From IMG/VR virus record IMGVR_UViG_3300025617_001208, positions 1 to 64,000 of that record: a stretch of DNA of 64,000 bases. One strand, written 5' to 3'. A model generated the notes under the pieces. It worked only from the letters and a program-made list of their open reading frames with translations, was not told the DNA's origin and searched no databases. This DNA is from a virus. A program made the translations under genes and the position numbers. Below are positions 15,328-33,681 of this stretch, one piece after another (the first letter of the stretch is position 1; the number at the start of each line of letters is the position of its first letter).

Positions 15328-16062
15328 ATGTATACAGTTACAGAATGGGGTGTAAGCAACGAACCACCTGAAATATTTGCAGATAGAAATAAGTATCCAG
15401 CAAAGCCAAAATACCCACAAGATTTAAAAAGCTCACGTGATATACACATGAGTGACCAATTAGATTATTTGCCTATTGTAGGATTTGAAGATGCCGAATG
15501 GGAGAAGATGTTACAAGAAGCAAAAAATTTAGAAAAACATTATGTTCCGCATAGACATCACGAAAGTCATAGTGGCTGGAGTAGTTTATGCATACATGGG
15601 TTAAGCAGTGTACATACCGAATCTCATCATACATACGGATATACAGATAGAAAGGACGCTCCTTACAAATGGACCGATGTTGCAGACTGGTGTCCTACAA
15701 TAAGAGATTTTTTTGAAAACCGGTTTGATTACAATCAATATGACAGAATACGTATTATGAAACTATCTCCAGGAGGATGGATTATACCACATAGAGATAG
15801 TGTAACACTTGACGAAAATCATATAGGTCCTACTAATATTGCATTAAACAACCCAGAAGACTGTCACTTTTATATGGATAACATTGGATATTTGCCATGG
15901 GAACAAGGACGCATTATTAAATTAAATTTGTATAATTTGCATTGTGTATACAACTGGAGCAACGAAGATAGATATCATATTATTGCTCACGGCAGACTAG
16001 GAGACGGCTGGAACAAACGTATTGAAGATAGTTATCATCACTGGAGAAAAATTTATGTATAA
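15328..16062 (+). CDS. Aspartyl/asparaginyl beta-hydroxylase-like Fe(II)/2-oxoglutarate oxygenase
   Basis: 244 residues. IMKLSPGGWIIPHRDS gives the HxD pair H155/D157, LNLYNLHCVYNWSNEDRYH gives the distal H205 and the 2OG-binding R215, in the order and spacing of the Asp/Arg hydroxylase family. The N-terminal third has a His-rich stretch (YVPHRHHESHSGW). AAAGG precedes the ATG. It is divergently placed from a nitroreductase/radical SAM operon, mirroring the nitroreductase/hydroxylase/radical SAM set at 7553-9920. The substrate could be a protein Asp/Asn residue; this is inference from family behaviour. Confidence 0.82.
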   Translation: MYTVTEWGVSNEPPEIFADRNKYPAKPKYPQDLKSSRDIHMSDQLDYLPIVGFEDAEWEKMLQEAKNLEKHYVPHRHHESHSGWSSLCIHGLSSVHTESHHTYGYTDRKDAPYKWTDVADWCPTIRDFFENRFDYNQYDRIRIMKLSPGGWIIPHRDSVTLDENHIGPTNIALNNPEDCHFYMDNIGYLPWEQGRIIKLNLYNLHCVYNWSNEDRYHIIAHGRLGDGWNKRIEDSYHHWRKIYV

Positions 16063-17344
16063 CATACAACATGCCGTTGTTGTACCAAAAAATGTAAAAG
16101 AAAACATTAATCGAGATTTATATCAAAGTTGGATGTTGTATTATCAACGTGGACACTATGTAAAACAAAGCGTTGAACAGCATCCATTTGTGTGGGCAGA
16201 AACAGTTGACGATATATTATCAATTGTTTCTCCTAAAAAAACTGAATATTTAATTGTAACTTGGTTTGGGATATATAATCACGACTTTTGGAATGTTCAT
16301 ACACTGTGTATAAAAGACATACAAGATCAAAAAACAGAGTGGAACGTATTGCACAGCAATAACACACCAACAATACAAATTGTTAATTTAAAAAGATGGA
16401 GAGAACAAGGCCAGCCGGCATTTGCAGATTACATAAAAACAAATAGTAAAAAAATTAATCCTGCTATTTCTACAAGTTTACTAGATTCCGAAGCAACACA
16501 AAATCCACAAGCATGGAGCGACGAATTAAATCATTTTACCAAACTACCTATTATCAATACAAATCTTACTGAGCTACTTGTTAAACTTCTTACAACACGA
16601 AATCCAAGGCATGCTAACAACCACGACAAGGGTGTGTTTTTCTTATATAATACAGAAGCTATATGTACGGATAAACAACGTCTAAGGGCGGTACAGGGCG
16701 CTATAAACACGGTTATAGGCCCTTGTAGTATGTTTAAAGCATTTATATTAGGTAGTAAATATATAGACAATGTTGATAACTATTTACACTTTGATATATT
16801 TGATCGTAATTTACAATGGAAAAAACTTATTACTGAAAATTGGGACGGTACTAAAAAAGGATTAACTAAAACACTATCACTTTGTGCAGATGAAGGAGAT
16901 GGCGATTTTAGCTTTTGGAATAATAGCAATGAAAACATTATTGAAAAGCAGTGGAATGTACTATTAAACGAATTAGGAAGTAAGGAACAAATACTTAGAG
17001 CATGGAATATTTACAAAACAAAAAATCATGCATATGCATTAAGTAATATGTTGTTTGACGATAACGAAATTATAAACAAGTTAGAACAATTTAATATTAC
17101 AGGAATATATCATGCAATAGGAGATATACCCGGTTTTAGAAGTAATGCATTACAGTTTGGATTACAACAAATAAATCAATTAACTAAAAGTCATCTAACT
17201 AGAGTTGCTAAAATAAATAACAATCTTTATGCAGATATAAAAGTTCCTGCGTCAGATTTACAAAAGTTTAAAAAATACAACGAAATCATTGACGATTTAC
17301 AAAACGATTATAACGAATTTTCGTTCGAAGAGTATTCAGAATAA
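16055..17344 (+). CDS. Unrecognised protein family, member 1 (429 aa)
   Basis: Starts at ATG 16055 (MYNIQHAVVVPKNV) with GGAG at 16043-16046; an upstream in-frame ATG lies wholly inside the previous gene. No domain recognised. The middle and C-terminal part resemble 25049-26410: GVFFLYNTEAI against KFYVYNTDTN, then LITENWDGTKKGL against MYETWDGRDYKQF, then YALSNMLF against LWLSNVYH. The LHFDIFDRN / LMFADYDKF segments before WDG could be a Rossmann-like strand-loop, so a SAM- or nucleotide-binding enzyme is possible but not shown. It overlaps the convergent radical SAM gene by 37 bases. Confidence 0.75.
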   Translation: MYNIQHAVVVPKNVKENINRDLYQSWMLYYQRGHYVKQSVEQHPFVWAETVDDILSIVSPKKTEYLIVTWFGIYNHDFWNVHTLCIKDIQDQKTEWNVLHSNNTPTIQIVNLKRWREQGQPAFADYIKTNSKKINPAISTSLLDSEATQNPQAWSDELNHFTKLPIINTNLTELLVKLLTTRNPRHANNHDKGVFFLYNTEAICTDKQRLRAVQGAINTVIGPCSMFKAFILGSKYIDNVDNYLHFDIFDRNLQWKKLITENWDGTKKGLTKTLSLCADEGDGDFSFWNNSNENIIEKQWNVLLNELGSKEQILRAWNIYKTKNHAYALSNMLFDDNEIINKLEQFNITGIYHAIGDIPGFRSNALQFGLQQINQLTKSHLTRVAKINNNLYADIKVPASDLQKFKKYNEIIDDLQNDYNEFSFEEYSE

Positions 17345-18549: not shown

Positions 18550-19910
18550 TGTATTTTTCCTTTATAATCTACGTAATCCTTTATTTGTTCCCAAAGCTCG
18601 GGCAAAGATTCTTGTATTTTTTGATTGCGCAGTTTATCAACATCGGCACTATATTCAACAAAGTCTTGTAAACTATTATTTGTATTTTTTGAAAAACTAC
18701 TTATAATATGTTTAATCATGTATCTAAAACGTACAAATATTTCATACTCGTCTAGATTATCAACACGTTTAGAATGCTTTTTAATAATTTCTTCTAGCTG
18801 ATCAATAACTTCTTGCTTTTGCGGTAACATTGTACTTGTTAAATAATTAGGTGTTTGCAACATTGTAGGACTAAATCTTGCTATTTCATATATGTAACTA
18901 ATGTCTGTACCGTGTTTGTTTTTGCGAATATACTTAGAATATAAATCATTGTCTACAATAAATTTTTTACCGTATAATTCTTCTTGTAAATTTTCCCACC
19001 AGTTCCACATTTTTGGTAATTGTAAAATATTATACAAACTAATAGTTGGAGAAAATACAATATCAAAGTTTTTATATTCTTTTGCTAAACTTAGCCATTT
19101 TTTAGCACTTTCTTCAACAGTATGCCATTTACTCGGATAACGTATATAATCATTAACTTCATCTAATCCGTCAATACTTAAATAAATTTGTACTAACCCA
19201 AATTGTTTTAACCTATCAATTATTTTTGACTTAGGAACCCAACTACAATTAGTATATATTTGTAGCATAATATTATCTGTATGTCCACTTTCAATAACCT
19301 TGTCTATAAAAGGAATAAATGTAGGAACAATCATAGGCTCGCCGCCGGTCATTTTTATTAACTGTGTTTCTTTAAAATCATCCGCAGTAAAGTTCAAATC
19401 TAACACTTGCGGACGTTTACTAAAATCAAACCTATCTTTGTAATGTTCTGCTAATACTTTGTCATCTGCATCCCACGTTGTACTTAAATCACTACTACAC
19501 ATTCTACATGCAAGATTGCAGTATCTACCTGTTGTTAGTTCTAAGTATTTAAAACTGAGCTGTTGATTAACATCGATAGGCCTAAATTCGTTTTGCTCAT
19601 TCCATGCATTATTAGCATTAAACCTCATACTAAATTTGTCGCCGGCGTCTTCTTTGTCGCACTTGTAACACCCAGGAATTGTTTTTCCTTTAAGCATATC
19701 GGTACGTAAGTCATTCCAAAAATCACTTTCCATTATTTCTTTAAATGATTTTTCTTTTACATTATACTGAGACATTATAGGATTGCCTTTTTCGTCTCTG
19801 TATGCTTCATTCATATGATCAAACCGACAACAAGGCTTTGCTTGCCCATTGGGTTTTAGTTGCATGTGTATCCATGGATATATGCAAAAACTATTTTTTA
19901 CTACTGTCAT
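18546..19910 (-). CDS. Radical SAM enzyme, N-terminal twitch type
   Basis: 454 residues. N-terminal FCIYPWIHMQLKPNGQAKPC followed by a second Cys (C9, C27-C28) and GCYKCDKED (C81, C84) form the auxiliary-cluster unit. Core GRYCNLACRMCSSDLSTTW gives C131, C135 and C138; KMTGGEPMIVP is the SAM motif. The C-terminal ADVDKLRNQKIQESLPEL corresponds to the family signature (Asp-x-x-Arg-Asn...Pro-Glu). The overall order, auxiliary domain first and core second, is the reverse of classical SPASM enzymes. Overlaps the upstream SPASM gene by 20 bases. Confidence 0.88.
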   Translation of the reverse strand: MTVVKNSFCIYPWIHMQLKPNGQAKPCCRFDHMNEAYRDEKGNPIMSQYNVKEKSFKEIMESDFWNDLRTDMLKGKTIPGCYKCDKEDAGDKFSMRFNANNAWNEQNEFRPIDVNQQLSFKYLELTTGRYCNLACRMCSSDLSTTWDADDKVLAEHYKDRFDFSKRPQVLDLNFTADDFKETQLIKMTGGEPMIVPTFIPFIDKVIESGHTDNIMLQIYTNCSWVPKSKIIDRLKQFGLVQIYLSIDGLDEVNDYIRYPSKWHTVEESAKKWLSLAKEYKNFDIVFSPTISLYNILQLPKMWNWWENLQEELYGKKFIVDNDLYSKYIRKNKHGTDISYIYEIARFSPTMLQTPNYLTSTMLPQKQEVIDQLEEIIKKHSKRVDNLDEYEIFVRFRYMIKHIISSFSKNTNNSLQDFVEYSADVDKLRNQKIQESLPELWEQIKDYVDYKGKIQ

Positions 19911-20931: not shown

Positions 20932-21755
20932 TAAATTTTCCTTGTAGTCATTAGGCTTAAGCCTGCTTTCATTGTAACATTATATTTTGGAAAATCCATA
21001 CCGCTATGTGCCTGACATCTATCAAAAGCAATAATACTGCCTCTGTCCCAATTATACATTGCTTCAAAATCAAAACCTTCTAGCCAACGTGCAGGAAAAT
21101 GGCTTAAATATTTTTCTCTTACTTCTGGATCAAACGGTTTATTCCAATTAACATCTTTAACTGTTCCGTCTTTGTTATAACAAGTCAATCCATCGTAATT
21201 ACGTACCGTATAAAAAACATCTGTGTCGTATTTGTTATCACTTTTTGCAAAGTTAGTTCCAAATTTAATAAATCTGTTATCAAATAAACAAGTACCCGCA
21301 GGAGGAATTTTATCAGTGCCTTTGTATGTTTTGTTTGTATGCCCAACCCATAAAGGAATAATGATTTGCCTGCCCGGTACAAGCCCCCTGTCCATTAAAT
21401 ACTCTGGACGACCTGTGTCAATATGTAAATTGTAAGGACTAGCAGTCATTACAAAATTGCCTTCCCACATACCTGTTTGTTCTAATTCAGGAACATATTT
21501 TTTCCATTTATCAAAAAATTTGTCTTCGATGGCAGTATTGTCGCTAAAGAAATGTAATGTTCCTGTTTCCTTAACACGCATTTTGTTATAGCGTTTGAGC
21601 ATATGCTCCTTTAACCATTCTAATTCATCTTCGTCCATTACATCTTGTACTTGAAAACTGTCAGTCCAGGTTTCTTTCCATGCGTTATGATATTCTTCTG
21701 CTACCTCAAAATCAATCTTGGTATCAGGATCGGTATCTAATTTTGCTATACTCAT
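20931..21755 (-). CDS. Fe(II)/2-oxoglutarate-dependent oxygenase-like protein
   Basis: 274 residues from ATG 21755, which overlaps the upstream stop as ATGA; the in-frame TTG 12 bases earlier is less likely. ASPYNLHIDTGRPEY supplies H111/D113, RGSIIAFDRCQAHSGMDFP supplies the distal H250, and VTMKAGLSL has K263 near the 2OG position. RQIIIPLWVGH is the central strand. It resembles 9892-10710 in the metal motifs and in FDxC-x-x-H. Encoded between an SDR-like gene and a SPASM radical SAM gene. The substrate is unknown; coupling suggests sequential modification of one target. Confidence 0.78.
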   Translation of the reverse strand: MSIAKLDTDPDTKIDFEVAEEYHNAWKETWTDSFQVQDVMDEDELEWLKEHMLKRYNKMRVKETGTLHFFSDNTAIEDKFFDKWKKYVPELEQTGMWEGNFVMTASPYNLHIDTGRPEYLMDRGLVPGRQIIIPLWVGHTNKTYKGTDKIPPAGTCLFDNRFIKFGTNFAKSDNKYDTDVFYTVRNYDGLTCYNKDGTVKDVNWNKPFDPEVREKYLSHFPARWLEGFDFEAMYNWDRGSIIAFDRCQAHSGMDFPKYNVTMKAGLSLMTTRKI

Positions 21756-22309
21756 TGTTCGTTCCAATACTTATCTTGCATAGGATCAATACTAATCTCA
21801 TTTATTCCTATGTCTTTAGGCTGATCAACAATCCATTTGATATATTGTGCTGCCCTATCAATGTCTAAACATATTCGTTGTGGATGCTTCATTGTATTAT
21901 TACTTAGCGTTCCAAAACTTATGTAAGTAATTTTTGGACTTGTTCCCCATACTCCACTTATACCAAGTGTGTTACTATAATCACGCAATGCTTTCTTTTC
22001 TGCATTATAACGCCATGCTTTTCCATTTTTTACACGATCGGTAGTGCTACCTATGTTTATAATATGCGGCCTATGTTTGTGTTCTACACATAATTTATAA
22101 ACTTCATCTAATAAATTTGTTTGATGAAATTTAAATAATGCTGCACAATTTATAAAAACGTCATGTTCTAACACCAATTTTGCAACACGAACTTGATCTT
22201 CTCTTAAACTTAAATCGTACCCAGTATTTCTACTACAAAACTGTGCATTAGGATAAATTTTTTCTAATGCGCCTGCAACACCAACATCCTTGTTACCTGT
22301 AATAATCAT
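21752..22309 (-). CDS. Short-chain dehydrogenase/reductase-like protein
   Basis: 185 residues, shorter than typical SDRs (about 250). The start IITGNKDVGVAGALEKIYP is a TGxxxxxG-type dinucleotide loop, VFINCAAL sits where the NNAG strand is expected, and NIGSTT (Ser88) with WRYNAEKKAL (Tyr101, Lys105) matches the catalytic Ser/YxxxK set. The truncated length lies after the active site, where the substrate lobe normally is. Probably an NAD(P)-dependent oxidoreductase or a sugar-nucleotide type SDR remnant. Overlaps its neighbours by 4 bases on both sides. Confidence 0.72.
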   Translation of the reverse strand: MIITGNKDVGVAGALEKIYPNAQFCSRNTGYDLSLREDQVRVAKLVLEHDVFINCAALFKFHQTNLLDEVYKLCVEHKHRPHIINIGSTTDRVKNGKAWRYNAEKKALRDYSNTLGISGVWGTSPKITYISFGTLSNNTMKHPQRICLDIDRAAQYIKWIVDQPKDIGINEISIDPMQDKYWNEQ

Positions 22310-25048: not shown

Positions 25049-26410
25049 TTAATTATTTTCTGTTTGATTTAAAAACTGTTGTGCAATTTTTTCAATTTTT
25101 ATATATTTGTTGCTAGTAAACCCTGGTGTACCATAAGGCATTGCAAAATCACCAAATATGTGTACAGTGTTAGGTATTCTACTAATTAAATAATCTTGTG
25201 CTCTAGCTCTGTCAATTAAACTGTGAAACATGCTTGTAGGTTTGTAATGGTATACGTTACTTAGCCACAATATTTTGTTTCCGTCAACATTTAAAAAATC
25301 ATGTATTTTATCTGCTTGATCTGTTTGTTGTCTTACTAACAAGTAATTTACTCTTTCAAACCGAACCTTTATATTGTTTCTAAATTCATTCCACCATATA
25401 CACCATTCATCAACTCCGCCAAAGTGTTCAATAAATTCAGAATTAAAATCACCAAAATTTTCAGCAACAAAGTTTCCATTGTGTATGCGTGTGTCAATAC
25501 TTTGAATAAATTGTTTATAATCTCTGCCGTCCCAAGTTTCATACATCTTACGCATTACGTACAAACTAAACTTGTCATAATCAGCAAACATTAATTCAAA
25601 GTTATCTGCATATCCTATTTCGTGTATTGTTTTTAAATGATTAAGACCTGCTGCTACTGTAACCATACGTGTTAGTGGCTGTTGTGTAGTACAGCTTTTT
25701 ACAAATCTAGGATTTGTATTATTTGTATCTGTATTATATACATAAAACTTACTAATACATTGCTTTTCTGTAAGTTGAGTTAATTTATCATTAGCATCGT
25801 CAGTATCAGGGTATAAATAGAATTTACTTTTGCGTACAAAGTCGTCAAAACTTCTTATAGTATATCCAGCAGTTAAAATGTCATGTACTATTTTATATCC
25901 AGGTTTACAATTTTCATATGTACTTGTAAACATACTTGGAGCAATCCAATGCGGAGTATATTCGTCATGATGATTTTCTTCACTTCTAGCAGGTTGTATT
26001 AGATCTACAGATTGTTTACATCTATCAAAGTTGCAAGAACTTACTTGTTTTAATTTCTTAATGTTTAAATAAAATGCTTGATCGTGTATTTCTATATAAC
26101 GTTCTTGTCTATCTAGAATGTGTCCAACTAATATATCGTCATCAATAAGAAAACTATCTAATGTTTCTAAAAATCTGCCATGTACTTCAAGATCATTGCC
26201 CATATTAATACAGACCAAATGCTCGATGTTTTTTTCAACAGAATAATTAATAGCTGATTGATGACTGTCAAACTTTTTAATATTTTTTAGTCCTAGCTGA
26301 GCTCCCAATTCGACCCACCAAAACTCGGTTAGATTTTTACTAACTCCTTTTGTAATATTGCTTTTTGATAAATTCATATTATCAATAAATGCTATAAAGA
26401 AATTTCTCAT
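25049..26410 (-). CDS. Unrecognised protein family, member 2 (453 aa)
   Basis: Starts at ATG 26410 (MRNFFIAFIDNMNLSKS), overlapping the upstream stop as ATGA; further upstream in-frame starts would lie within that gene. Shares with 16055-17344 an FxVYNT-like strand, a MYETWDGRDYKQF element and a WLSNVYHY element near the end. The N-terminal 190 residues have an alpha/beta pattern (LVCINMGNDLEVHGRFLETL) and are not recognised. The C-terminal IFGDFAMPYGTPGF is distinctive. The pair occurs in two different operons of the same island, each beside radical SAM genes, so a role in the same pathway is likely. Confidence 0.75.
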   Translation of the reverse strand: MRNFFIAFIDNMNLSKSNITKGVSKNLTEFWWVELGAQLGLKNIKKFDSHQSAINYSVEKNIEHLVCINMGNDLEVHGRFLETLDSFLIDDDILVGHILDRQERYIEIHDQAFYLNIKKLKQVSSCNFDRCKQSVDLIQPARSEENHHDEYTPHWIAPSMFTSTYENCKPGYKIVHDILTAGYTIRSFDDFVRKSKFYLYPDTDDANDKLTQLTEKQCISKFYVYNTDTNNTNPRFVKSCTTQQPLTRMVTVAAGLNHLKTIHEIGYADNFELMFADYDKFSLYVMRKMYETWDGRDYKQFIQSIDTRIHNGNFVAENFGDFNSEFIEHFGGVDEWCIWWNEFRNNIKVRFERVNYLLVRQQTDQADKIHDFLNVDGNKILWLSNVYHYKPTSMFHSLIDRARAQDYLISRIPNTVHIFGDFAMPYGTPGFTSNKYIKIEKIAQQFLNQTENN

Positions 26411-27423
26411 ATTTTTGTTAACCTTTTTACTGTACAAGTATCTGCACATCTTTTTATTTTTCCGCACTTGCCTTCGCCTACTGGATTGTTAAAACTTTCT
26501 ATCAGATCATTTGCAAAAAACTCGTGTTTGATAATGTCATCAACACTATGATGCTCTAAACTATTAAATGTTTCACCGTAGTTTTTATTGATACGTGCAG
26601 TCATATGATCATACATTCCGTGACGCATAAAATATCCATTGTGTAAAAAACAACAAGGCCATATTTTACTATCATAACTCATAAAATACATTTTGCGTTC
26701 TAAGCTATGACAGTTGATAGGCAACTTTTCTTTTTCACTGTAATCCTTAGGCGGCAAATCAATATTAGGCACAGGACGATTTGCTGTTTTTTTCTTAACA
26801 ATACTTAGTTGTGTTTCTTGTTCGGTTATGTGAGATAAGTCGTATCGTTTGTGAAAACTTTTAAATCCCATTTTATAAGCAAGTTCTTCAGCTTCATCTA
26901 CTTGATGTTCATTCCACGGAAATATCAAATATTGCCAAATAACAGTGGCACCTGTACCAATTGCTGCTTTTGCATTTTCAATAATTTTATTGTAGTTTGT
27001 CTTTTGTCTATAAATGTGATTAGTGTTTGCCAACCCATCAATACTAAAATGTAAACTGTGATTAGGAAACTTTAGTAGTTCTTTACCTATTTTTTCAAAA
27101 TATTCTGGTGAACGCAAACTTCCATTTGTGTGTATACTTGGAACTAGTTTATTATTAATATTACTTGCAATTGATAAAAATTTATCAAACTCAGGATGCA
27201 TAAAAGGATCGTCTACAGTGCCACAAAACTCCAAGTCTGTTAGTGTACTCATAGTATCCGATTTTAGTAGTTTTTCAAATGTTTCTAGTTTTACTAATTT
27301 CTTTTTTGGTATAATTTTTTTAGTTTCGTTATAGTTAAATTGTTCAGTTCTATGACAACCCAAGCATAATGCATTACACATACTAGACAATTCCATTTGT
27401 AATATACTAGCCTGACTAAACAT
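26407..27423 (-). CDS. Radical SAM/SPASM enzyme of the NEHQV subgroup
   Basis: 338 residues from ATG 27423 (MFSQASILQMELSSMCNALC). Core CNALCLGC is C16, C20 and C23. The SAM-loop region reads FCGTVDDPFMHP instead of GGEP. YLIFPWNEHQVDEAEELA is the subgroup signature shared with 19891-20931 and 28427-29512. The C-terminal KIWPCCFLHNGY and GKIKRCADTC cysteines form a SPASM-like domain. It overlaps the stand-alone SPASM gene upstream by 8 bases. Substrate unknown; the subgroup is probably one enzyme family duplicated and diverged. Confidence 0.88.
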   Translation of the reverse strand: MFSQASILQMELSSMCNALCLGCHRTEQFNYNETKKIIPKKKLVKLETFEKLLKSDTMSTLTDLEFCGTVDDPFMHPEFDKFLSIASNINNKLVPSIHTNGSLRSPEYFEKIGKELLKFPNHSLHFSIDGLANTNHIYRQKTNYNKIIENAKAAIGTGATVIWQYLIFPWNEHQVDEAEELAYKMGFKSFHKRYDLSHITEQETQLSIVKKKTANRPVPNIDLPPKDYSEKEKLPINCHSLERKMYFMSYDSKIWPCCFLHNGYFMRHGMYDHMTARINKNYGETFNSLEHHSVDDIIKHEFFANDLIESFNNPVGEGKCGKIKRCADTCTVKRLTKI

Positions 27424-27712
27424 TAACCTTTTCCTTAATTTTGCGAGAGCCGTTTTTAGGACAATGTCTAACACATCCTATATAAGGATTTTTAGTTCTC
27501 CATGTATTATAAATTTTATCCCAAAGTTTTACAATTTTTTTTGGATGATTATTTTGCAACTTTAACATTTCGTAATCTTTACCAAATAAATCTCTTAGCT
27601 CGTGTTCGTGATTAGAATGTGTAGTTAAATAGCAGCATGGCAAAAATAAACCATTAATTTCTACAAAAGGATGTAAATTTTCCATGCACATTGGTTTAAT
27701 TTTTTTATACAT
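27416..27712 (-). CDS. Stand-alone SPASM/twitch-like domain (98 aa)
   Basis: Only the auxiliary-cluster half of a SPASM enzyme is present: PMCMENLHPFVEINGLFLPC followed by a second Cys, a helix ending IVKLWDKIYNTWR, then YIGCVRHCPKNGSRK. The order C, CC, W..I, C...C is the same as at the C-termini of 19891-20931 and 28427-29512. No radical SAM core. It starts 8 bases inside the end of 27705-28430, a core-only protein, so the two genes look like one radical SAM/SPASM enzyme split in two. There is no slippery site before the upstream stop that would join them. Confidence 0.75.
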   Translation of the reverse strand: MYKKIKPMCMENLHPFVEINGLFLPCCYLTTHSNHEHELRDLFGKDYEMLKLQNNHPKKIVKLWDKIYNTWRTKNPYIGCVRHCPKNGSRKIKEKVNV

Positions 27713-28430
27713 TTAACGAGCTCACTATTGTATCGGTATTATTTTTTGGATAACTGAAATTATAGCCGCCTAGTTTTAAAACTTTCCAAGCCCAACGTGC
27801 AGAAAAGTCAGGACGTAACCATTCATGCTGGCCTACATGCGGCCAATCAAATCTAATATAATCAAACTTAGCGTTAATTGCTTCTTTTACTATATCAACT
27901 AATTTCCATTTGTTATAAGAAAAACAGATTGTTTTTTGAATTATTGTTGGTTTATTTTCAACTTGCAATAAAGACTGAATTCCTATATCTATACTTTGAA
28001 TATCCCCATTTACTCTATATTTTGTAAAATTTTCTCTAGTGCCATCAATTGAAAAATATATACAATCAGTTGGCTTCATTACATTACCTAATTCTTTCCA
28101 AAACTTTTTATCTCTGTAACTTCCGTTTGTGTGCATTTGTATTGTAATTGGCGAGCCAGTTTCAATTTCTCTTTCTCTAATAAATTGCACAAGCGGTATT
28201 AAATCAGGATAGTAAATTGGATCTCCCCAATTTCCACAAAACTCAATTCCAGAAGGGTTAGTTTTATTGATTAATTTTGTATAATTTTTATAATTAACAT
28301 GAACGGTGTTTGTTATATCAGGAATTGTGTTTTTAGGAGCAGTAGTTCGAGCACACGCCAAGCATCCTAGTGTGCATTTATATGTTAGTCCTAAATGTAA
28401 AGAATCAATTTCTCTACCTTTCCAATTCAT
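27705..28430 (-). CDS. Radical SAM core protein lacking its SPASM domain
   Basis: 241 residues: only the core. LTYKCTLGCLACARTTAP gives C19, C23 and C26, and EFCGNWGDPIYYP is the GDP-type motif in the place of GGEP, as in the NEHQV subgroup. IQMHTNGSYRDKKFW and YFSIDGTRENFTKYR are the standard strands. The protein stops where relatives begin their C-terminal SPASM region, and that region is encoded separately by the overlapping downstream gene. A two-subunit enzyme is the simplest reading. Overlaps 28427-29512 as ATGA. Confidence 0.85.
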   Translation of the reverse strand: MNWKGREIDSLHLGLTYKCTLGCLACARTTAPKNTIPDITNTVHVNYKNYTKLINKTNPSGIEFCGNWGDPIYYPDLIPLVQFIREREIETGSPITIQMHTNGSYRDKKFWKELGNVMKPTDCIYFSIDGTRENFTKYRVNGDIQSIDIGIQSLLQVENKPTIIQKTICFSYNKWKLVDIVKEAINAKFDYIRFDWPHVGQHEWLRPDFSARWAWKVLKLGGYNFSYPKNNTDTIVSSLNV

Positions 28431-29512
28431 TTAAATTGCTCCGCAAACGGATCAAACTCAGTACCGCACTTTTGCGCACATACTCCTAACTTACCTTCTT
28501 TAACACTAGACAAATTCCAACTGTTTTTAATATCAGACAACAAAGATCCGTTCATAACATCTTGCAAGTCGTTGTCAATTACATCAATGCCTTCTTTGCC
28601 GCCTGCACGGTCAATAAAATCCCAAACTTGTTCTACGCGAGGATCTGGATGCCACCATTTGTACATACGTCCAGCAGTCCAACAACAGGGCATCATCAGC
28701 CCTTCTGCTGTAATAAAAATATTACCTTCTTCTGCAACTTTACATTTAATACTACATGTATCGTAGTAATCCTTCATACTACCATATTCTTTGGTAATTT
28801 GTTTTTCTTTTAACAATGCAATATTAATGTTTTCTTTTTTCTTAGGCTTTGCTAAGTTTTGTGTATCCTCGCCTTTGCGGTTTTTTGCTTGGTGTGTTTC
28901 TTTACCTGTTAACTTAGCAGTACTGTAGAATCTGCCGGTCTTCTTTTTAATAAATTTTTCACATCCCCAAGAATTAGCAAGTGCTTCTGCTTCATCTACT
29001 TGGTGTTCGTTATGCGCAAAAATAATGTAATCCCAACGAGCTCTGCCGCCGGCGTCAATAAACGCTCGCATGTTGCGTTCTACATTGTCCCATACTACTC
29101 CTTGTCGATACAAATGATTCGTATTGCTAAGACCGTCCACACTAAAAATAACAGCGCCCATTCTTCCAAAGACATGGGCTAACTCGGTCCACCATTTAAC
29201 ATCTTTCGCTCCTGCGTTTGTATTCATGCTTAACCACATGTTTGGATTGTGCTCTCTAAAGTAACGAAATATTTCTAGTGTGTCTCTTGCAACAATAGGA
29301 TCACCTAAATTACCACACATAAACATTGTTTTTAATTGTGCAATAAATTCTGGTTTAAATATACGTTTACAATCTTCTAAACTTAATTCTGCATTAGTAA
29401 TATGAGGATTATCAGCACCGCCATTCATATTACGATCGCACATAGGACACGCTGCTTGGCAGCGTTGTGTTACTTCTAGGTGTACTGTTTTAATATCTTC
29501 ATATCTATACAT
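28427..29512 (-). CDS. Radical SAM/SPASM enzyme of the NEHQV subgroup
   Basis: 361 residues from ATG 29512, which overlaps the upstream stop (TAATG); the earlier in-frame TTG is not needed. Core EVTQRCQAACPMCDRNMNGG gives C18, C22 and C25; MCGNLGDPIVA replaces GGEP; YIIFAHNEHQVDEAEALA is the subgroup signature. A Lys-rich insert (about 195-235) precedes the C-terminal LMMPCCWTAGR and LGVCAQKCGTEF SPASM cysteines. Visibly richer in G+C than the two genes downstream of it. Probably peptide- or protein-directed by family analogy. Confidence 0.9.
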   Translation of the reverse strand: MYRYEDIKTVHLEVTQRCQAACPMCDRNMNGGADNPHITNAELSLEDCKRIFKPEFIAQLKTMFMCGNLGDPIVARDTLEIFRYFREHNPNMWLSMNTNAGAKDVKWWTELAHVFGRMGAVIFSVDGLSNTNHLYRQGVVWDNVERNMRAFIDAGGRARWDYIIFAHNEHQVDEAEALANSWGCEKFIKKKTGRFYSTAKLTGKETHQAKNRKGEDTQNLAKPKKKENINIALLKEKQITKEYGSMKDYYDTCSIKCKVAEEGNIFITAEGLMMPCCWTAGRMYKWWHPDPRVEQVWDFIDRAGGKEGIDVIDNDLQDVMNGSLLSDIKNSWNLSSVKEGKLGVCAQKCGTEFDPFAEQFK

Positions 29513-30083: not shown

Positions 30084-30970
30084 TAAGGTCTTCCAATTAC
30101 CATAAAACGTTTGTATCCAAATAGTTCTTGTTCACCTGCATATTCAAGTCTACTCATTGGAAACTTTTTAATCATATGATCAATACTGTGTACACAGTTT
30201 ACATGTTCTTCTACATCAAACAAGTTGTTGCTTTGAATTACAAACAATGGGTCACTTTCCATTGGGCGATTTGCAAACTTTTGATACCACGTACTAGGCA
30301 TGTGTTCGGCACTTGTATTAAACACTAAACTTGGTTGTGTTTTTTCAAATATTTCTTTGTCAGTTGTATAATTTTTAACATTATAAGTACACCCTGTTCT
30401 GCTGACCCATTCCATGTTTTTATCTAAATCGCTGCTACTTGCCATTGGTAGTTTCATTTCAACAGATTTTACTTTATAGCCTTCAATGCGCTGTGCGTTA
30501 AAAATCTTATCACTAACGTAACATGCCTCAGGATCAACGTCAAACACTCTCATTTTATTATATTGTATAACTTGCTCAAGGAACAACCGTATCTGTCCGT
30601 ACCATCCACCAAGTACGTACACAGTATCAAATTCTTTTTGTATTTTTGCAAGTTCTTCCATTGCCCATATTTTACTATTTACTTGCCCTCTACTAAATGC
30701 ATCTTGTAGGAAAATAGGATTATAGTTATTTCTATAATACTTGTCAAATATATCAAAAATATCATTAGTTGTTTGTTTCTTTAAAAAATGCAAAAATTCT
30801 GCAATGTTAAGATCCAATGATAAATTTATCATATTGTCCTTTGAGTACACCATTGATAAGAAAAAGTCAACAAGCATTTTTGATTCTTTATCGTTGACAA
30901 AATCAAAATATTCTTGTAAGCCGTGCAACCAGCTTATATTATCTACTGCAATTTCATTATTTACATTCAT
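30083..30970 (-). CDS. SAM-dependent methyltransferase-like protein
   Basis: 295 residues from ATG 30970 (MNVNNEIAVDNISW), preceded by GAGAG. A helical N-terminal 110 residues is followed by a Rossmann start TVYVLGGWYGQIRLF (motif I, GxxxG-like), MRVFDVDPEACYVSDKIF (acidic residue at the ribose-binding position) and LVFNTSAEHMP as motif IV. This order fits class I methyltransferases, though the Gly motif is not canonical. Related proteins occur in marine T4-like phages. The product could methylate a small molecule, protein or glycan. Overlaps the glycosyltransferase-like gene upstream. Confidence 0.65.
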   Translation of the reverse strand: MNVNNEIAVDNISWLHGLQEYFDFVNDKESKMLVDFFLSMVYSKDNMINLSLDLNIAEFLHFLKKQTTNDIFDIFDKYYRNNYNPIFLQDAFSRGQVNSKIWAMEELAKIQKEFDTVYVLGGWYGQIRLFLEQVIQYNKMRVFDVDPEACYVSDKIFNAQRIEGYKVKSVEMKLPMASSSDLDKNMEWVSRTGCTYNVKNYTTDKEIFEKTQPSLVFNTSAEHMPSTWYQKFANRPMESDPLFVIQSNNLFDVEEHVNCVHSIDHMIKKFPMSRLEYAGEQELFGYKRFMVIGRP

Positions 30971-31988
30971 TAGCAAATCTCTCTTCTAACCAATCAAAGT
31001 CATTAATATTTCTTAATTGTTCACTGTTGTGTTTATTACGAGCACCAAACATTGCTCCTGACTTTGCACCCTGGAATGCATAATCAGCAAAGTCTCCTGT
31101 ACCTTTTGTACACCAAGTAACAAGACGTTGTTGTGTTTCGTTGTCTTTTTGTCTGTCTATTACACGACTACTTAGCTTTGCACATTCTCTAAATGCACTT
31201 TTCCATGTATTAAAAGGATCAGTGTTAAATCCAGTAATGTTGCTTACTTGCATCATTGCTACAAATTTGTTACTAATACTTGTGGTCATATCAGGTTTAC
31301 TTGTGTCCATATTAATTGTTTCTTCTCTTGGAAACAACTTTACTCCGCCGTATCCATATTCAAGACCGTTTACCGGGTTAATACTGCGCCAAACGTGTAC
31401 TGCTTTACTATTCCACCATTCAGGTACATAGTCAAAATTAAAGTTATCAACTATTTCAGCATCACCGTCAACTATCCAGACTCTGTCAGTTGTGCAAAGT
31501 TTTGCAGCTTCGATGTGTGCCTGGTGTATTCCTTTTACTCCGTGTACACGTTTAGCTCGTGGAAATCTCTTTAACAAACTTTGATAATTTTCATCAGCAT
31601 TGGGCTCTTGATAACTGATAAAAACTATATCACTTGTTTCACTTAAAGGTGTACTTGCACAAATATCTGTAAACTTTTTGTTAATATAAAATCTAGCAGC
31701 AAGTTCTCCTGGTCCGTGATGACTTTCTTTTGGCATAAGTGCTATACCATCGTAATTGCTACTATTTAAAAATACATGTGTATACTGCATATCAGCCGGC
31801 TTAGATTTATATGTAAAGTCCCAATCGCTATTAAGTTCCAGTTCTGGATATACAATCCACAACATCTTTGTGTTTGCTTGGGACTTTGCCGAAACAACGG
31901 ATTCTGCTGTTTTAGCAGTTATAAATTCTTCTTTCAATTTTAGGTATTGGGGGTGATCTTTTGATCCAATAAAATAAATATCATACAT
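30957..31988 (-). CDS. Glycosyltransferase-like protein (EPNADENY family)
   Basis: 343 residues. The core IVFISYQEPNADENYQSLL (121-139), RAKRVHGVKGIHQAHIEAA and RVWIVDGDAE (DGD at 174-176) match the 39688-40608 protein closely. The VDGDAE element resembles the DxD metal/nucleotide-sugar site of GT-A glycosyltransferases. Marine T4-like phages carry similar proteins annotated as glycosyltransferases; acceptor unknown. The first 115 residues are absent from the shorter paralogue. It has a consensus promoter with no leader immediately upstream and opens the longest operon of the island. Confidence 0.72.
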   Translation of the reverse strand: MYDIYFIGSKDHPQYLKLKEEFITAKTAESVVSAKSQANTKMLWIVYPELELNSDWDFTYKSKPADMQYTHVFLNSSNYDGIALMPKESHHGPGELAARFYINKKFTDICASTPLSETSDIVFISYQEPNADENYQSLLKRFPRAKRVHGVKGIHQAHIEAAKLCTTDRVWIVDGDAEIVDNFNFDYVPEWWNSKAVHVWRSINPVNGLEYGYGGVKLFPREETINMDTSKPDMTTSISNKFVAMMQVSNITGFNTDPFNTWKSAFRECAKLSSRVIDRQKDNETQQRLVTWCTKGTGDFADYAFQGAKSGAMFGARNKHNSEQLRNINDFDWLEERFANECK

Positions 31989-32076: not shown

Positions 32077-33681
32077 ATGCCAGAAATTATTATTTTTAAT
32101 GATTGCAACGGGCCTTTAGGATTTGGAAGATATGCCGGCCCTTATCGTATTGCAACAGAACTTCGCGACAACGGATTTACTGTACAAGTAATCGAATTCT
32201 TTGGAGACATGAGTCCCAGCGAAGTCGAATCTGTGATTGATGCTAAGGTTACAAAAGAAACACTTTGGGTAGGATTTGCTAGTACATTACTAAGCCAACA
32301 TCTGTCTCACAAAGAAGAACTTGAAATGTGGCTTACTCCACCTATGGGCAATCCAGGGCAATTATCCGAAATTTGGGTAACTTTATTTCCGCATACCGAC
32401 AAACAGATGACTGGATTTTTAGACAAAATAAAAACAATAAATCCTAAATGTAAAATTGTGGTAGGTGGATACAAAGCACTTGTTAAAGAATTTACTGGGG
32501 TAGATTATTGGATTTTAGGACAAGGCGAAGAAGCTGCTATTGCTGTATCTAAACATTTAAAATACGGAACTGAACTTAACACTTTGCAAATTGAAGGCAG
32601 TAATGTTATTACAGATAAGATGTACGAATACAAAGATTTTAATAATAGCAAAATTAAATGGCATAAATCAGACTTATTAACACCCGGAGAACATTTACCA
32701 ATTGAAACTGCAAGAGGTTGCATTTTTAAATGTGCGTTTTGTGCATATAATTTAAACGGTAAAAAATTTGGTGATTACACTAAAAATGCATATACCCTTA
32801 GAGAAGAATTATTGTATAACTACGAACATTTCGGAACTACAGATTATATGGTATCTGATGACACCATAAACGATTCTTTAACAAAAGTACAGTACTTACA
32901 CAATGTAATAACAAGTTTGCCTTTTAAAATTAGTATTAGTGGATATCTACGTGTAGATATTATTGCTGCACAAACTGAAATGATTAGATTATTATACGAA
33001 ATGGGATTATCATCTGCAAATTTTGGTATTGAAACATTTAATAAAAAAGCAGGATCGTTAATCGGTAAAGGTGCAGATCCAGGATTAATTAAAGAAACAT
33101 TATTTAGATTGCAGGACGAATGGGGAGATGATGTCTTTACGTCTGGTAACTTTATTGTAGGATTACCTAGCGAAAGCAAAGAAAGTGTAAAAGAAACATT
33201 TGAGTGGTTACATAGACCGGACCTTCCGTTGCATGCAATAGGAGTAACTAGATTGTATGTAAAACAATATAATAGAAGCATTACGCCTGTTAACATTTCA
33301 GACGAGAATATGATAAAATACGGATTTAGAAAACTCGACGATGGATGGATGTATAATAATTCGTCAAAGATATTAGATGATTCAAAAAAATACGATATAG
33401 ATATAAATTATTTAGACGGCATGACATGGTCGTCTAACCATATGACAGCACAAGAGGCCGAACAACTAGTTAGCGATTTTTATAAAGATCCAAGAAATTC
33501 TCATAAAAAATTTAGTTTAACAGGATTCGTTGTTTATAATAGAATGCGAAATTTAGGATACACAAAAGAAAAAATAGCACACATGTGTAGTGATGATCCA
33601 AAAGTTGTAGTCGAAGCTGTAAATCTAAGGAGAAATTTAAAATCAGAATATATGCGAAAACTTCTGATAAATAAAGTGTAG
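32077..33681 (+). CDS. B12-binding-like radical SAM enzyme
   Basis: 534 residues from ATG 32077. The N-terminal 160 residues (GPYRIATELRDNGFTVQVIE, then IVVGGYKAL and YWILGQGEEA) have the layout of the cobalamin-binding-type Rossmann domain of class B radical SAM proteins, but no DxHxxG cobalamin motif is visible. The core is ETARGCIFKCAFCAYNL with C215, C219 and C222, followed by YMVSDDTIND, FGIETFN and FIVGLPSES, the standard B12-type radical SAM strands. This subfamily includes methyltransferases, ring-formation enzymes and methylthiotransferase-like proteins. It is the only member here without extra auxiliary-cluster cysteines. Confidence 0.85.
   Translation: MPEIIIFNDCNGPLGFGRYAGPYRIATELRDNGFTVQVIEFFGDMSPSEVESVIDAKVTKETLWVGFASTLLSQHLSHKEELEMWLTPPMGNPGQLSEIWVTLFPHTDKQMTGFLDKIKTINPKCKIVVGGYKALVKEFTGVDYWILGQGEEAAIAVSKHLKYGTELNTLQIEGSNVITDKMYEYKDFNNSKIKWHKSDLLTPGEHLPIETARGCIFKCAFCAYNLNGKKFGDYTKNAYTLREELLYNYEHFGTTDYMVSDDTINDSLTKVQYLHNVITSLPFKISISGYLRVDIIAAQTEMIRLLYEMGLSSANFGIETFNKKAGSLIGKGADPGLIKETLFRLQDEWGDDVFTSGNFIVGLPSESKESVKETFEWLHRPDLPLHAIGVTRLYVKQYNRSITPVNISDENMIKYGFRKLDDGWMYNNSSKILDDSKKYDIDINYLDGMTWSSNHMTAQEAEQLVSDFYKDPRNSHKKFSLTGFVVYNRMRNLGYTKEKIAHMCSDDPKVVVEAVNLRRNLKSEYMRKLLINKV

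Follow-up and report, generated by a model that had tools for sequence, protein, structure and literature searches.

Overlapping phage genes that probably encode a radical SAM/twitch enzyme as two polypeptides

The gene pair and its genomic surroundings

The stretch of DNA analysed here, referred to as the window, comprises 64,000 nucleotides of a virus record of 76.9 kb, which derives from an aquatic bacteriophage. Two overlapping genes follow each other on its minus strand. The leading gene (27705..28430, read from 28430 to 27705) codes for a radical SAM core of 241 residues that lacks a C-terminal domain, and the second gene (27416..27712, read from 27712 to 27416) codes for a protein of 98 residues that constitutes this domain, an auxiliary-cluster domain of the twitch type. 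Both share the 8-nt overlap ATGTATAA at 27705..27712 of the minus strand, which contains the start of the small gene and the stop of the core gene. A first-pass annotation of this DNA had described both open reading frames as well as C19, C23, C26 and a GDP-type motif in the core at 27705-28430, and all of these were found again.

In the core, C19, C23 and C26 form the RS-cluster motif CX3CX2C, which is invariant in five split lineages and in all fused relatives described below, and GNWGDP is found at residues 66-71. Residues 1 to about 209 align with the core of the fused relatives, and residues from about 210 to 241 form a variable tail that corresponds to a linker. The match to PF04055 (25.0 bits, E 2.4e-5) lies under the gathering score of 29.5, which the paralogues exceed. 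The small protein possesses the cysteine pattern C9-x11-G21-x4-C26-C27 ... C80-x3-C84; C9, C26, C27, C80 and C84 are invariant in the aligned split lineages, and the pattern of lineage L081 is identical. Taken alone, the small protein gave no match in Pfam, NCBIfam, PHROG or PADLOC, and a tblastn search of its open reading frame against 50,697 phage records also gave none. PADLOC, with which an anti-phage defence role was looked for, likewise had no match for the core. In one scan of bacterial and archaeal genome contigs, at the sensitivity of that scan, no relatives of the core were confirmed.

The pair lies within a run of overlapping genes on the same strand, between two unsplit paralogues. 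The upstream paralogue (28427..29512, minus strand, 361 residues) consists of a core and a C-terminal twitch-like domain and overlaps the core gene by 4 nt, and the downstream paralogue (26407..27423, minus strand, 338 residues) shares the 8-nt overlap ATGTTTAG with the small gene. The latter paralogue showed a weak match to the prokaryotic viperins of PADLOC (pVip, E 7e-6, 23.6 bits), which probably reflects general similarity of radical SAM cores. Overlaps in this gene run measure 4 nt six times, 8 nt four times and 1 nt three times. The 8-base overlap, which had been called the usual one of this genome, is therefore common, but the 4-nt overlap is commoner. A second 8-nt overlap with the sequence ATGTATAA occurs on the plus strand at 16055-16062, between the genes 15328-16062 and 16055-17344, so that such a junction is ordinary here.

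All 15 radical SAM matches of the record are located inside the window (8787-45333). They include a B12-binding radical SAM protein at 32077-33681 and four radical SAM genes with an N-terminal twitch domain (NF033640), designated 17308, 18546, 22306 and 23612. Nitroreductases as well as aspartyl-hydroxylase-type and TauD-type (2-oxoglutarate-type) oxygenases are encoded in the same region, which is an unusually dense and apparently biosynthetic phage island. Other aquatic T4-like phage genomes that are rich in radical SAM genes are known, with 12 of them in one environmental genome (PMC5332604), and 11 radical SAM proteins are found in the Campylobacter phage CP220 (PMC2853527).

Relation to fused radical SAM/twitch proteins

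Fused relatives of 294-325 residues were collected from IMG/VR, and a profile was built from 17 of them. This profile matches the core with its positions 4-199 (156 bits) and the small open reading frame with its positions 221-300 (24.0 bits), without any overlap of the two matches. In a shuffle control with the same profile, the best of 3000 shuffled versions of the small open reading frame reached 11.7 bits. A profile-profile comparison by hhalign, in which four split small proteins were set against the fused family, gave a probability of 96% and an E-value of 2e-9 over 80 columns (template columns 224-304). In the alignment, the small protein runs parallel to the C-terminal domain of the fused proteins, beginning at IxPxC, via GxxxPCC, up to the final CxxxC. 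As the fused profile divides between the two proteins, the core ends at the point at which its relatives continue into their C-terminal domain, which bears out the corresponding claim of the first-pass annotation. What is present in the window are two separate intact genes, each homologous to a part of a single-chain relative, which is one characteristic of a naturally split enzyme.

The fused proteins in question (L040-L076) show about 34% identity to the core of the window. The pair had initially been equated with an enzyme of the type encoded at 19891 and 28427 of the window. This is to be corrected in that the closest fused relatives are the phage enzymes of about 300 residues; both paralogues are placed elsewhere in the tree of the core region. 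The genes of the L040-L076 type are mostly found directly upstream of a gene that by eye resembles a T4 gp41-type helicase, often with an overlap of 1-5 nt.

The SPASM motif, CX9-15GX4C-gap-CX2CX5CX3C-gap-C, binds two clusters (PMC6231123), and the twitch domain is a truncated SPASM domain with one cluster (PMC6231123, PMC9012708). The small protein lacks the seven-cysteine SPASM motif and contains only C9-x11-G-x4-C26-C27 and C80-x3-C84, and it gave no match to PF13186 (SPASM). It possesses the sequence features of a twitch domain, namely the motif and the profile match to the fused C-terminal domain. This motif, CX9-15GX4C with a second cysteine pair, is invariant in split and fused forms, and the second pair is CX3C here. 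Judged from its sequence, the small domain is of the twitch type, half a SPASM domain, and one auxiliary Fe-S cluster per small protein is expected. The earlier assignment of SPASM-type cysteines to the small gene thus holds for the presence of an auxiliary-type set (CC and CxxxC), but half of a SPASM motif makes the domain a twitch type. The pair does not belong to the N_Twi_rSAM family (NF033640): the split core scores 24.9 bits against a cut-off of 170, and the gene for the twitch part follows the core gene.

Distribution and junctions of the split form

The first-pass annotation had proposed that fused and split forms should be sought in related phages, and both were found. The two-gene form exists in at least five diverged phage lineages; those found comprise 11 contigs including the window, and the core gene always precedes the small gene. 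Closest to the window are five contigs (L005-L009), with 85% identity of the core and 88% of the small protein and with the overlap ATGTTTAA. A single contig (L022) follows with 54% and 66%, respectively, and the overlap ATGA, then two contigs (L038/L039) with 41% and 39%, a GTG start and the overlap GTGAGTAA, and another two (L081/L082) with 41% and 44% and the overlap ATGAGTAG. The identities of core and small protein co-vary across all ten pairs of lineages, and both genes are adjacent and in the same order in all five lineages although the flanking genes differ. In L039 and L081, for example, the pair is located after a homologue of window gene 21752-22309 and before differing genes; L081 also encodes a CMP-sugar-type cytidylyltransferase (PF02348).

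Between the window and L007, dN/dS amounts to 0.10 for the core gene (dN 0.080, dS 0.776) and to 0.08 for the small gene (dN 0.066, dS 0.824), and both genes are under purifying selection. A wide alignment (A3) was too diverse for scanning. Maximum-likelihood analysis of the core region placed the five split lineages together in a single clade, supported at 100/100. The nearest fused sequences by path are those of the L040 type, with weak support for the deeper branching, and the paralogues 19891, 28427 and 26407 group elsewhere (96/89). The single, fully supported clade indicates that the split most likely happened once, before the five lineages diverged, and was then retained. The stability of the two-gene form, as originally suggested for the window, is thereby borne out by four further lineages, by their common clade and by the selection on both halves.

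Several other gene arrangements were observed in these contigs. In L077:1597-2530, and also in L078 and L096, the order is swapped: a 105-residue twitch-like gene with the motif C...G-x4-CC...CxxxC precedes and overlaps a core-only radical SAM gene, and the fused-family profile matches the small protein with positions 219-257 and the core with positions 6-200. A single origin of this swapped pair and the main split clade gave p = 0.10 in the AU test, which is compatible with one origin as well as with two. At L022:445-1478, a homologue of the window gene 30957-31988, which is one open reading frame in the window, is broken into two overlapping open reading frames of 172 and 181 residues, and this break looks like a frameshift or sequencing error. 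In record G002 (the L006 contig), the homologue of 19891 at 1801-2793 contains one in-frame TGA, and the frame is open in the other contigs of that lineage.

The junctions themselves differ in sequence between the lineages, and all five have a start codon, ATG or GTG, at this position. Relative to the core, the small gene is in the +1 frame in the window, L007, L039 and L081, and in the -1 (= +2) frame in L022. In the window, the start codon of the small gene is directly preceded in its own reading frame by TAG, TGA and TAA, so that both frames could be joined only inside the 8-base overlap, and the small gene of L007 likewise has stops in its frame just before the start. Shine-Dalgarno-like sequences precede the small gene in L039 and L081; the match before the small gene of the window is weak. 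Together with the four other split lineages, the flanking stops bear out the initial view that both frames are intact and that no sequencing error is involved.

Structure prediction

A structure prediction of both chains as a complex had been suggested in the first-pass annotation. The AlphaFold2 predictions reported here are all single-chain; for these, the two frames were joined in silico to one chain, with the four-letter word GTAT read as V at the junction. With 27 relatives in the alignment, this fused read reached a mean pLDDT of 82 and a pTM of 0.83. The pLDDT of the core exceeds 90 over most of residues 50-190, and segment 229-245, which spans the split point at residue 241, remains below 50. 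This low confidence places the split point within a predicted flexible linker. With alignment A13, which does not contain relatives that link the halves, the pTM decreased to 0.66, and the core was still predicted well but the small half mostly had a pLDDT below 57; only three closely related small sequences stand behind the small half in this unpaired run. The packing of the halves at a pTM of 0.83 stems from the fused relatives that the alignment contained; the prediction came out well with these relatives and poorly for the small half in their absence, and the unpaired run speaks neither for nor against an interface. A complex of the two chains is plausible, and we think it likely.

In a Foldseek search against the PDB, BlsE, SkfB, MoaA and SuiB ranked first and anSME was among the top matches, with a probability of 1.00. 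Most of these matches are radical SAM enzymes with C-terminal auxiliary-cluster domains, and the pLDDT values and the Foldseek matches together assign the partial TIM-barrel fold to the core. The sequence similarity to chains of solved structure is negligible, with a best E-value of 0.44. The best viral structural match, with a TM-score of 0.76 by target, was BFVD entry A0A6J7WZ72, a radical SAM protein of 204 residues from an uncultured phage; it is long enough only for a core and could be another core-only form.

Proposed enzyme and alternatives

We think it quite probable that the gene pair encodes one radical SAM/twitch enzyme that consists of two polypeptides. In such an enzyme, the 241-residue chain would be the radical SAM barrel, in which C19, C23 and C26 hold the catalytic [4Fe-4S] cluster, and this core would cleave SAM to generate the 5'-deoxyadenosyl radical that starts the radical chemistry. 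The 98-residue chain would be the detached C-terminal twitch domain with one auxiliary Fe-S cluster, for which C9, C26 or C27, C80 and C84 are candidate ligands. It may close the barrel on its open side, and it could either accept an electron from the radical formed on the substrate or keep the substrate in place, as in fused twitch enzymes such as BtrN and MoaA. The split would be placed in the variable and probably flexible linker of the fused relatives. The overlapping stop and start codons suggest a coupled translation of both chains at about 1:1; this coupling, the binding of the clusters and the heterodimer are what we infer from the data described above. From the surroundings of the pair, our guess is that the enzyme oxidizes or rearranges a small molecule, sugar or peptide that is made by the island.

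Readings in which the split is not a property of a functional two-gene enzyme were considered in view of the junctions. At the window junction the frames are offset by one base, as would be expected from a sequencing or assembly frameshift in a really fused enzyme. In the window and in L007, however, stops in both frames limit a fusion by a single indel to the 8-bp overlap, five contigs of the second lineage keep the junction in an identical register, and three further lineages are also split, one of them with a different offset. Because in-frame stops flank the junction and four other lineages have kept the split, this explanation was rejected and has next to no probability left. In the window and in L007, the stop codon of the core gene is followed by an A7 run, which could point to a programmed ribosomal frameshift that yields a fused protein, but the required shift varies from +1 in four lineages to +2 (= -1) in L022, a common slippery sequence does not exist, and an ATG or GTG start is present at the junction in five out of five lineages. 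As the frame offset is not conserved, a shared programmed frameshift was rejected too, and we regard this mechanism as very improbable. The rapid turnover of phage gene islands would be compatible with a decaying gene in which the split is a recent disruption before loss. Yet both halves have a dN/dS of about 0.1 at a dS of about 0.8, every RS and twitch cysteine is invariant, and the split is older than the divergence to 41% core identity; for this clade, purifying selection and the age of the split led us to reject decay, and its probability is minimal. Taken together, it is the differing junctions and offset, the single clade and the purifying selection that lead us to reject an error of sequencing, gene decay and a programmed frameshift common to the lineages. 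The conserved split is real and long-lived and not an error, and it probably represents a two-part enzyme.

A more serious alternative concerns the partner of the small protein, which might be a free-standing Fe-S protein that serves several of the island's radical SAM enzymes as electron carrier or adaptor; or the core might work alone. The 15 radical SAM matches of the record would provide such partners, no confident interface is predicted when fused relatives are left out of the alignment, and NCBIfam names stand-alone SPASM-type proteins, such as TIGR04304, which is listed for another protein. We nevertheless consider this unlikely, as the C-terminal domain to which the small protein is similar belongs to the very fused family that the core matches, as the two genes lie side by side, overlap and diverge in step in each of the five lineages despite differing neighbours, and as the majority of the remaining radical SAM genes in the island have an auxiliary domain of their own at the C- or N-terminus. 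A further idea, to which we assign a somewhat lower probability still, is that the separate twitch protein acts as an auxiliary-cluster subunit that can be exchanged and that binds in trans to two or more of the island's radical SAM cores. If so, the auxiliary cluster, which is usually part of a fixed domain, would be a shared module that phages can recombine, and the order-swapped pair of L077/L078, with the small gene before the core gene, would represent a second modular case.

Comparison with known systems and implications

Split genes occur in T4-like phages, as exemplified by the T4 topoisomerase genes 39 and 60, in which one ancestral protein is likewise made from two phage genes. These belong to another class of enzymes, and neither a mobile element nor a homing endonuclease is present at the junction of core and small gene. 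The fused phage proteins L040-L076 share the core and the C-terminal motif C...G-x4-CC...C-x3-C with the split pair, but they are one polypeptide with a variable linker, whereas the window encodes two chains. BtrN, MoaA and SkfB also combine a radical SAM core with one C-terminal auxiliary-cluster domain (PMC6231123, PMC9012708), but all three are single-chain enzymes. The SPASM enzymes anSME, SuiB and PqqE have the first half-motif CX9-15GX4C in common with the small protein, which lacks their second half, CX2CX5CX3C, gap and C. N_Twi_rSAM proteins (NF033640), which are encoded in the same island, possess a radical SAM core and a SPASM/twitch-like domain as well, but this domain is N-terminal in them (Pfam SPASM at residues 4-97 where matched). 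In phage CP220, gp083, gp084 and gp080 are fused homologues with a cysteine-rich C-terminal domain, and the core is 30% identical over 97% of the query; in contrast to the split pair, the CP220 radical SAM proteins are fused and distant on the tree.

Radical SAM enzymes that carry auxiliary-cluster domains are known, and no report of a split or heterodimeric SPASM/twitch enzyme was found among those open-access papers that were searched. Enzymes of the kind described here are now read as a truncated radical SAM protein and a small protein of unknown nature, because the 98-residue gene has no match in Pfam, NCBIfam or PHROG, and this should be taken as a warning for annotation. What the auxiliary clusters do in SPASM/twitch radical SAM enzymes is a matter of ongoing debate (PMC9012708), and the covalent attachment of the domain to the rest of the enzyme is one reason for this. 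In a natural two-chain version, the core and the auxiliary-cluster subunit could be made separately, loaded with Fe-S clusters, mutated and titrated. The interdomain linker would be dispensable in such an enzyme, which may be useful for engineering.
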